This document shows positions 22,377 to 26,619 of a DNA stretch of 32,826 nt, one piece after another. Every line of letters begins with the position of its first letter. Position 1 is the stretch's first letter. The DNA lies in NCBI GenBank assembly GCA_030643245.1, contig DAOWME010000004.1, forward strand, positions 1 to 32,826, in the 5' to 3' direction. Both the position numbers and the translations under genes were made by a program. This DNA is from Deltaproteobacteria bacterium. Lineage in GTDB: Bacteria; Desulfobacterota; UBA8473. Below the pieces are notes generated by a model that saw nothing but the letters and a program-made list of their open reading frames with translations, had not been told where the DNA came from and did no database searches.

Positions 22377-22790
22377 TCACAATACGCTTCTTTCCCTCTT
22401 TATTCGCTCCATGATATGGTCAACAATTACCTCTCCCGGTGTCCCCTGTCCAAAAAGACCCGTTATACCCATCTTCTCCAATATTGGCTTGTTTTCTTCT
22501 CCTATTCTGCCACCACCAAACACGCATATGTCACCAGCGTCTTTTTCCTTCAATAGCTCCACTACCGAAGGGAAGTAAACCATATAGAGGTCGTCATTGA
22601 GATAACTCAAAACGATGCCGTCAACATCTTCATCTATGGCGGCATTCACGATTTCTTCAACTGTATGAAACGTACCTATATATATTACTTCTATGCCTGC
22701 TTTTCGTAATTCCGATGCTACGTATAATAGTCCGCGATCGTGGCAATCAAGTCCAGGCGCTCCCGCCAACACACGTATTTTTCTTTTCAC
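22377..22790 (-). CDS. Cobalamin-binding (small) subunit of an acyl-CoA mutase
   Basis: KIRVLAGAPGLDCHDRG (DxHxxG), GIVLSYLND, VFGGGRI. Confidence 0.95.
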   Translation of the reverse strand: MKRKIRVLAGAPGLDCHDRGLLYVASELRKAGIEVIYIGTFHTVEEIVNAAIDEDVDGIVLSYLNDDLYMVYFPSVVELLKEKDAGDICVFGGGRIGEENKPILEKMGITGLFGQGTPGEVIVDHIMERIKRERSVL

Positions 22791-22811: not shown

Positions 22812-24482
22812 TTAAAAAGGATATTCTATCATTTTATAGGGGTCATAATCATATCCATTTGCCATGCGTATTACGCCAACAATCTCACCCAAAGTAGCGT
22901 CGGCTCTAAGCGCTCTGTTTATCGCCGGAATAAGGTTATGCTTTTCTCCTTTCTCTGCTTCGCTTTTGAGGTTTTCTAAGGCATTTTTCGTCGTTTTCTT
23001 ATCTCTTTCCGCCTTGAATTTTCTTACTTGCCTCGCTCTTTCTTCTGCCACGTTTATCTGTTCCTCCGGGGGTCTGTATTTCTCCATATCTATTGTTACT
23101 TCTTGTTCCTTTGGCACTATGAACTCATTTACCCCCACCACATATCTCTCCTTAGTTTCTAACTCCTCCTGCCTTTTCGTCGATTCTTTTTCCAATTCCC
23201 CACGCATCCATCCTATCGCTTTGAGAGCGCCACCCCTTCTCTCCAACTCATCCACTAATTTCCATATCTCTTCCTCTATCTTCGATGTCATCCATTCAAC
23301 GTAATAGGAGCCCCCTAGGGGGTCTGCGGTAGCAGCGACACGGGACTCATGGGAGAGAATATGATGGATGTTCAAACAAGTTAGCGCCTCTGGTTCAGTT
23401 AACAGGTGATGAGGCTCCCCATATCCACAGGGGTCAAAGGATTGAAGACCTCCCAAGACGCAGGCTAAGGATTGCAAGGCTATCCGAATGACGTTATTCA
23501 CAGGCTGCACCACGGTGAGCGAATCCCCTTCAGTATGTGCAGACAAATAAATCCGCATGGACTTAGGGTCCTTTGCTCCGTATTTTTCCCTCATCAGCTT
23601 CGCCCATAACCTCCTAGTAGCTCTGAATTTCCCTATCTCCTCGAAGAAGTCTATATCACAAGAGCAGCCAAAAACATTTATGCGAGGCGCAAAATCATCT
23701 ATGTTATAGCCTCGATCAATCATACGGTCTATGTATTCACGGATGATAGCCACGGTAAATGCTATCTCCTGGACTACATTTGCACCATAGTCGGCCAGGT
23801 TATAAGGATTCGGTGCGAGGGGGTGCAACTTGGACGTATGTTTTATGGAATGTTCTATGACGTCAGTGGATAATTTTACACTTAACTCCTCAGGGAAATG
23901 TTCGACATTAAACATTGTAAGCGCAGAGAAGAGGTATTCATTGATGAATGATCCACTCAGTTTTTTAAGTTCATGCCCCATATCCTCTGCATAAGTAACA
24001 AAAGCGGCATAGATAACCGGTCCTGCCATAGTAGGGGTATTTTGTGATAAACTAATGTCTTCCGGCGATATCCCATCGAAGTAATCATAGAAGTCCTTGA
24101 GCATGGAGAATGATATCCCCGTAACACCGGCATTATATTGGCCTAAAGGATGGTCAGCATCCAAGCCATGACCTGTGGGTGCATCTGACTGCCAATACAG
24201 CCCTGTTTCTCCGTGCTCGATTAGATATTTCCATCTTTTGTTTGTATCCGAAGGTAAACCAAGCCCTGTAAATACACGCTTTGTCCATAATTTCCCACGA
24301 TACATATCGCTCCAAATACCCCTTGTATAAGGATATTCCCCGGGATTGCCCAAATCACGCTGGTAATCTATGTCCTTAATATTTTCAGGGCTATACACCG
24401 CTTTTATTGGTATACCGGAGATGGTTTTAGTTATTGGGCATGGTTCGAACCGTTTTTCTGGTTTTGTCTTTTCTTTTTTCAT
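22812..24482 (-). CDS. Methylmalonyl-CoA mutase-family large subunit, divergent substrate pocket
   Basis: GNPGEYPYTRGIWSDMYRGKLWTKR..., DDFAPRINVF, FFEEIGKFRATRRLWAKLMRE, AATADPLGGSYYVE. Confidence 0.93.
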   Translation of the reverse strand: MKKEKTKPEKRFEPCPITKTISGIPIKAVYSPENIKDIDYQRDLGNPGEYPYTRGIWSDMYRGKLWTKRVFTGLGLPSDTNKRWKYLIEHGETGLYWQSDAPTGHGLDADHPLGQYNAGVTGISFSMLKDFYDYFDGISPEDISLSQNTPTMAGPVIYAAFVTYAEDMGHELKKLSGSFINEYLFSALTMFNVEHFPEELSVKLSTDVIEHSIKHTSKLHPLAPNPYNLADYGANVVQEIAFTVAIIREYIDRMIDRGYNIDDFAPRINVFGCSCDIDFFEEIGKFRATRRLWAKLMREKYGAKDPKSMRIYLSAHTEGDSLTVVQPVNNVIRIALQSLACVLGGLQSFDPCGYGEPHHLLTEPEALTCLNIHHILSHESRVAATADPLGGSYYVEWMTSKIEEEIWKLVDELERRGGALKAIGWMRGELEKESTKRQEELETKERYVVGVNEFIVPKEQEVTIDMEKYRPPEEQINVAEERARQVRKFKAERDKKTTKNALENLKSEAEKGEKHNLIPAINRALRADATLGEIVGVIRMANGYDYDPYKMIEYPF

Positions 24483-25006: not shown

Positions 25007-25044
25007 TAATTACCCTTATGAGAGTAAAAATATGGAGACATAAA

Positions 25045-26619
25045 ATGATCACATTATTAGACTATGGTGCAGGAAATGTCAGAAGCGTCATTAACGCTTT
25101 AGAGAGCCTGGGCGAGACCGTTAAGGTTGTCGCAAGCGGTGAGGACATCCTGACAGCAGAAAAGCTGGTTTTCCCCGGGGTGGGCGCCTTCGGCAGCATG
25201 ATGGAAATCCTTAAGAAAAATAAATTAGTCGAACCTTTGAGGGAGTATCTCTATTTCGATAGGCCTTTTCTCGGTATTTGCTTGGGTTTACATGTCCTCT
25301 TTGACTCCAGTGAAGAGGCCTCTGACATCAGAGGACTGGGGGTTATTCCTGGGACAGTAAAACGGTTTATCATTAACCTTTCTGTACCTCACATCGGTTG
25401 GAACAACCTCAATATCAAGCAGCCCTCACGAATCTTCGATGGGCTTCAAGGTGATGAAAAATTCTATTTTGTCCATTCATACCACGTAGTACCGGAGGAT
25501 GATTCGGTTGTCCTTACAACAACCGACTATGGGTATAAGTTTACAAGCAGTATTCAAAAAGGGAATATTTTGGCTACCCAATTTCACCCGGAAAAGAGCG
25601 GTATCTCCGGGCTAAGTATTCTGCATAACTTTTTGAATACAAACAGGGCGAGAAAAAGGCTCGTCCAGGTGCAGGGAGAAACGCGGTTGGCCAAAAGGAT
25701 CATTGCCTGCCTGGATGTAAGATCCAACGACGAGGGAGATCTGGTGGTTACAAAGGGGGACCAGTATGATGTCAGGGAAAATGGGTCAGTGAGAAACCTA
25801 GGAAAGCCGGTTGAATTGGCGAGACGGTACTATGAGGAAGGTGCTGACGAGATCACCTTCCTCAACATCACAGGATTCAGGAATTTTCCTTTGGAAGATA
25901 TGCCGATGCTCGAAGTGCTCCGGCAGACCTCGAAAAATGTCTTTATTCCACTGACCATCGGCGGAGGGATTAGAGATTATACGGACAAAAACGGCCGTAA
26001 ATACTCGGCTCTGGAGGTTGCCTCTGAGTACTTCAGGTCAGGCGCAGACAAGGTTTCTATTGGGAGCGATGCTGTTCTCATAGTTGAAGAGTACATGAGA
26101 ACGGGGCGAAAGACAGGCAGGAGTGCCATCGAAGAAATATCCAGCGTATACGGCAATCAGGCCGTCGTTATCTCGATAGATCCCAGGCGAGTCTATGTGA
26201 AATCAAGTAGTGAGGTCAAACACCAGGTAATTGAGTCTTCTGTTCCGGGTCCTAACGGCGATCGGTACTGCTGGTATCAGTGTACCATCAAGGGAGGACG
26301 TGAAGGGAGAGATCTGGATGCGGTGACCCTGGCACAAGAATGTGAAAAGTTGGGAGCAGGAGAAATCCTGCTGAACTGCATAGACAGGGACGGGACAAAT
26401 ATGGGGTTTGATATCGAGTTGATTAACGCAGTCAAAAGGTCAGTTTCCATACCGGTAATAGCCTCAAGCGGTGCCGGTTGCAGGGAGCATTTCCATGAAG
26501 TCTTTACCCTAACAGAAGCAGAATCTGCATTGGCCGCAGGCATCTTCCATCGAAATGAAGTTTCTATTGGGGCGGTAAAGGACTATCTTAAAGGCAAAGT
26601 GGAAATCCGGCCTGTTTAA
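25045..26619 (+). CDS. hisHF: Bifunctional imidazole glycerol phosphate synthase (HisH-HisF fusion); ORF opens at 25018
   Basis: N-terminal glutaminase (DYGAGN, GICLGLH, HPEKSG) fused to C-terminal cyclase ([31 protein letters not shown]); RBS GGAG before 25045. Confidence 0.95.

Follow-up and report, generated by a model that had tools for sequence, protein, structure and literature searches.

A two-part vitamin B12 enzyme of the methylmalonyl-CoA mutase family with a largely rebuilt pocket, and its place in a multi-mutase bacterial genome

The gene pair analysed here, from a 32,826-nucleotide stretch of Deltaproteobacteria DNA (the window), is a real two-part vitamin B12 enzyme of the methylmalonyl-CoA mutase (MCM) family, its pocket has been largely rebuilt, and its function is predicted. 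We consider it probable that the pair is an adenosylcobalamin (AdoCbl)-dependent acyl-CoA carbon-skeleton mutase that acts on a substrate other than methylmalonyl- or succinyl-CoA, with His316 as the putative donor to the thioester, and that it belongs to a radiation comprising about 30 mutases.

Gene pair, domains and fold

The large, substrate-binding subunit (556 aa; positions 22812-24482) and the small cobalamin-binding subunit (137 aa; 22377-22790) are both encoded on the minus strand, exactly where a preliminary description of this DNA had placed them, and the small-subunit gene lies 21 bp downstream of the large-subunit gene in the same direction. The mutase-like scaffold and the separate B12-binding subunit claimed in that description were borne out. 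The large subunit matched Pfam PF01642 with E=4.7e-135 and 451.5 bits (gathering cut-off 22.1) over residues 19-540, spanning positions 1-509 of the 512 in the profile, and hence carries a full-length domain. The small subunit matched PF02310 (B12-binding; E=3.4e-17) and TIGR00640 (95 bits, above the cut-off of 57). Its cobalamin motif is intact: the base-off/His-on motif DxHxxG reads DCHDRG (22731-22748, minus strand), and is followed by 41 residues, SYL, 27 residues and GG, the spacing quoted for this motif being DxHxxG(41)SxL(26-28)GG (PMC2702500).

Structure prediction, which had been proposed as a check, was carried out with AlphaFold2 on the large subunit, with 35 relatives as input alongside it. 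The resulting model of the large subunit (pLDDT 87.6, pTM 0.89) has its barrel strands in place and shows a complete mutase barrel. With Foldseek, the best matches of this model were HcmA (4r3u, TM 0.90), human MCM (0.88), MutB (0.88) and IcmF (0.82), and HcmA was the best PDB match both by sequence and by fold. As judged from its sequence, the large subunit is a member of the AdoCbl-dependent acyl-CoA mutase superfamily (PF01642), and its activity is predicted.

Substrate pocket and family placement

The pocket was analysed by pairwise and multiple alignment with human MUT, Propionibacterium freudenreichii MutB, HcmA and all paralogs. Residues are numbered as in P. freudenreichii MutB, with the titles of two PDB entries for its mutants, Y89F (5req) and H244A (1e1c), as anchors. 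All codons given below are on the minus strand. Three substitutions that had been read from the sequence beforehand were recovered by alignment: RQYAGF is RVFTGL (Tyr89 to Phe71; 24270-24272), the motif LR(T/F)H.QT.G (LRTHSQTSG) is IYLSAHTEG (Arg326 to Tyr312), and TQSLHTNSLDEA is LQSFDPCGYGEP, where the His of SLHT is replaced (His364 to Asp350; 23433-23435). The earlier list was right on these three but missed seven others, namely His244 to Asn228 (SGYH to NPYN; 23799-23801), Gln330 to His316 (23535-23537), His328 to Ser314, Gln197 to Ile180, Asn366 to Cys352, Lys604 to Ala11 in the B12 subunit, and the loss of Arg207, where Met190 is aligned only approximately, with an insertion nearby. We take Arg207, and not Arg326, to be the carboxylate-binding arginine of MCM. 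Position 116 is also changed (Ala116 to Gln98), and a loop of the B12 subunit that usually reads SxLxG-AH is SYLNDDLYM. Arg87, Tyr243, Arg283, Gln361 and Glu370 are unchanged; the last, presumably an adenosyl ribose contact, corresponds to Glu356 (23415-23417) and is present in every listed paralog.

To compare the pocket with the rest of the protein, a Fisher test was applied to those columns that show 90% or more conservation among canonical relatives. The window protein retains 75 of 122 such columns outside the pocket and two of eight inside it (Tyr243 and Glu370); with p=0.06, the excess of change in the pocket over general divergence is marginal. Identity to most of the more distant relatives is 36-42%. 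Nearly the same pocket is found in the sister enzymes, a clade of 12 sequences from eight genomes, which favours a selected state over random decay.

Among curated family models, the large subunit scored 328.4 bits against PRK09426 (the MCM equivalog; cut-off 876), a one-chain model that penalises a two-chain enzyme, 164.9 bits against NF045497 (IcmF; cut-off 1500) and 144.8 bits against TIGR00642 (MutA; cut-off 617). No fused GTPase (G-) domain was found in either window ORF. By these cut-offs the window enzyme is classed as neither MCM, IcmF nor MutA. A bona fide MCM with an altered pocket is very improbable: family membership and the full barrel are all that speak for it, whereas the pocket trio Tyr89/Arg207/His244 is replaced by Phe71, no arginine and Asn228, Lys604 is missing from the B12 subunit, and the same genome holds better candidates. 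Among these, the mutase on contig C213 retains all MCM pocket residues, and that on C121 is located with MeaB and an epimerase-like gene. MeaB genes are present in the genome, and the epimerase-like gene falls just under its curated cut-off.

The replacement of most catalytic pocket residues could also mean that the large subunit is catalytically dead or accessory, like the MutA small subunit of heterodimeric MCM. At the related C187 locus there is a single B12 subunit for two large ones, an arrangement that could reflect an active/inactive pair. We give this explanation little credence, since the window protein comes with a B12 subunit of its own, encoded next to it and intact in its cobalamin motif, keeps Glu370, and scores 425 bits against the alpha-type domain TIGR00641, far above its score against MutA.

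A FastTree phylogeny of 159 sequences, an analysis that had also been proposed as a check, was built with MCM and HcmA as characterised references, and the window enzyme fell outside both lineages. It belongs to a 12-sequence clade restricted to eight genomes of its own bacterial family, f1 (support 1.0), which is nested in a 49-member clade (support 0.975) away from MCM and HcmA. In the larger clade, Asp is the usual residue at position 244, with His at 330. Over the whole alignment, the 244/330 pair is H/Q in 92 sequences, D/H in 44, most of them supplied by one clade, and N, V or F with H in five. The solved HCM and MCM sequences that were aligned have His244/Gln330; the window enzyme has Asn/His, its Asn228 being unlike the Asp of the sister enzymes. 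This pairing points to a shift of the hydrogen-bonding histidine from one barrel strand to another.

If the enzyme were one of the known mutases for isobutyryl/butyryl-, pivalyl- or 2-hydroxyisobutyryl-CoA, its pocket having drifted only cosmetically, this would account for HcmA being the best PDB match, and for Phe at position 89 and the absence of Arg207, both presumably usual for ICM. Such an identity nevertheless seems unlikely. His244, His328, Gln330, His364 and Asn366 of HcmA are all changed in the window enzyme, the IcmF equivalog cut-off is missed, and the enzyme is not grouped with HcmA. We take Ile90 plus Asp117, residues seen in 4r3u, to be the HcmA signature; the window enzyme has Phe71 and Gln98. 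The preliminary proposal of a different acyl-CoA thus stands in part: placement outside the MCM and HCM lineages and scores below the MCM and IcmF cut-offs agree with it, but none of the substrates named (isobutyryl-, 2-hydroxyisobutyryl-, pivalyl- or ethylmalonyl-CoA) is favoured, because Asp117 of HCM is Gln98 and His244/Gln330 are Asn/His in the window.

Genomic context and mutase paralogs

The window pair is flanked downstream by nrdD, its activase and a GSU2086-family protein, and upstream by a divergent hisHF. Deduction of the substrate from operon context was ruled out for this pair, because the genes on either side of it, nrdD and hisHF, are not catabolic. No cobalamin riboswitch was detected at Rfam gathering thresholds, and promoter and terminator scans gave matches no more numerous than expected by chance. 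The hisHF gene (25018-26619, plus strand) is a single 533-aa ORF in which HisH and HisF are fused. Its alignment with the bifunctional HisHF of yeast (1jvn) runs end-to-end and scores 567 bits, the top HisF-only entry reaching 176, and five sister genomes matched its HisH half only (a separate 218-aa frame, 45-47% identity). Such a eukaryote-type fusion is unexpected in a sulfate-reducing bacterium.

Within its 12-sequence clade, the relatives of the window protein in the same genome are two genes on contig C187 (58-59% identity), arranged mutase-B12-mutase. The C187:2387-type mutase is conserved in all eight family genomes, while the window copy was found only in its host genome, G000. The nrdD genes of six sister genomes have no mutase pair upstream, so that the locus is private to G000 among the genomes examined. 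The window enzyme is thus a private G000 paralog of a mutase conserved throughout the eight family genomes. A link to sulfate activation was also considered, as in five genomes the C187:2387-type ortholog adjoins sat, and in four of those hdrBC as well; the window copy does not, and the arrangement yields no mechanism. In these four the block reads hdrC-hdrB-mutase-B12 subunit-sat (ATP sulfurylase), at 7661-12708 of L144 and in the same order in L145-L147. In the fifth (L143), sat still accompanies the mutase and its B12 subunit, with hdrBC not directly alongside.

The host genome (2.8 Mb, 85% complete) carries 30 PF01642 genes, whose pairwise identities have a median of 38% and never exceed 82%, and its pocket types are nearly as numerous as its mutase genes. 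The preliminary description had treated the window enzyme singly and did not notice that it belongs to a set of 30 paralogs whose pockets have diversified. The eight f1 genomes have 14-33 PF01642 genes each, compared with 16 or fewer, as candidate counts, in 289 other sampled genomes of the phylum. Strain duplication or contamination as the source of the 30 genes was rejected, because no pair exceeds 82% identity and similar numbers occur in eight genomes. One group of paralogs (C271:45, C199, C257, C92, C10 and C141; L012 45-1805, L028, L030, L031, L032 and L027) keeps Tyr89/Arg207/His244 but no longer has any trace of the motifs LRxHxQTxG and SLHTN. The genome paper of Desulfobacterium autotrophicum HRM2, a sulfate reducer with a 5.6-Mb genome, describes one methylmalonyl-CoA mutase gene (PMC2702500). 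In the open-access main texts searched, we found no account of such a mutase expansion or of a D/H-type pocket.

DsrA was found in seven of the eight family genomes, with a weak DsrA-family match in the eighth, and AprA in six (two as partial genes); ATP sulfurylase is also present. Together, these genes indicate that the f1 bacteria are probably sulfate reducers. Many of the paralogous mutases adjoin acyl-CoA dehydrogenases, enoyl-CoA hydratases, CoA ligases or HGD-D dehydratases, and some adjoin periplasmic binding proteins. The presence of about 30 mutases in one small sulfate reducer genome points to a toolkit with which many unusual acids could be rearranged.

G000 also carries at least nine full-length MasD-type alkylsuccinate synthase genes, three of them with an in-frame stop, plus several fragments. 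The MasD-like genes lie on C254, C280, C197, C83, C70, C214, C124 and C159 (L017, L023) and are 74-100% identical to the C254 query. Mutases stand directly beside masD at C254 and C83, and these also lack Arg207. The loss of Arg207 in the window enzyme suggests a substrate with no second carboxylate, albeit weakly, because the masD-adjacent mutases are expected to act on dicarboxylic thioesters. The synthases, the mutases beside masD and the shared loss of Arg207 would fit an enzyme of anaerobic alkane degradation by fumarate addition, namely a (1-methylalkyl)succinyl-CoA mutase. We regard this assignment as rather improbable, given that the conserved clade ortholog is present in G002, G005 and G007, three genomes without a MasD match, that the masD-adjacent mutases belong to other clades of the tree, and that the window pair does not lie near masD.

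Proposed mechanism and comparison with known systems

For the favoured reading, a mutase of a different acyl-CoA, the following course can be proposed by analogy with the family. The TIM-barrel subunit would bind the CoA thioester, and the separate Rossmann-type subunit would present cobalamin in the base-off/His-on state. Homolysis of the Co-C bond would give a 5′-deoxyadenosyl radical that abstracts hydrogen and starts a 1,2-shift of the CO-SCoA group. In MCM, His244 gives a hydrogen bond to the migrating thioester carbonyl. In the window enzyme, where Gln197, His328 and Gln330 are replaced together with the Tyr89/Arg207/His244 trio, His316 at the Gln330 position may take over as the donor, with Asn228 (Asp in sister enzymes) beside it. 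Members of the radiation would probably serve sulfate-reducing bacteria, some of them putatively alkane-activating, to turn branched or otherwise unusual acyl-CoAs into forms ready for beta-oxidation. More tentatively, it is possible that in a large mutase class the catalytic histidine has shifted from position 244 to 330 and that this class rearranges acyl-CoAs not known so far as B12 substrates, the window enzyme being a family-specific branch of it within the toolkit of about 30 members.

To our knowledge, few substrates have so far been established for mutases of the B12 acyl-CoA type. With 14-33 mutases per 2-3 Mb genome, nearly each with a different pocket, these bacteria hold a natural collection of enzymes for radical carbon-skeleton rearrangement, and the lineage points to new anaerobic routes for branched or hydrocarbon-derived acids. 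The substitutions in the window enzyme also make it possible to ask directly whether another residue can stand in for His244 in such reactions.

Among known systems, 2-hydroxyisobutyryl-CoA mutase (HcmAB, 4r3u) resembles the window pair in its separate large and B12 subunits, its fold (TM 0.90), 35% identity and the lack of an arginine at position 207. It differs in belonging to another clade and in having Ile90, Asp117, His244, Gln330 and His364 where the window enzyme has Phe, Gln, Asn, His and Asp. MCM (human MUT and P. freudenreichii MutAB) shares the barrel fold (TM 0.88), Glu370, Tyr243 and the cobalamin motif, whereas its Tyr89, Gln197, Arg207, His244, His328, Gln330, Asn366 and B12-domain Lys604 are all replaced in the window pair, whose B12 domain is on a separate chain, unlike in the compared MCM. 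The fused isobutyryl-CoA mutase IcmF is of the same family, and the Phe at the Tyr89 position is, we assume, as in ICM; the window pair, however, has no fused G-domain, its fold match is TM 0.82 and its equivalog score is 165 bits against a cut-off of 1500. The phylum also contains uncharacterised 'YD(L/M)RE' mutases (e.g. L159-L172), which share with the window enzyme 40-45% identity, Asp244 plus His330, mostly Cys at position 366 and no Arg207. To these features the window clade adds H364D, Q197I/L and the changed B12-subunit loop SYLNDxLYM, and the window enzyme itself has Asn at position 244.
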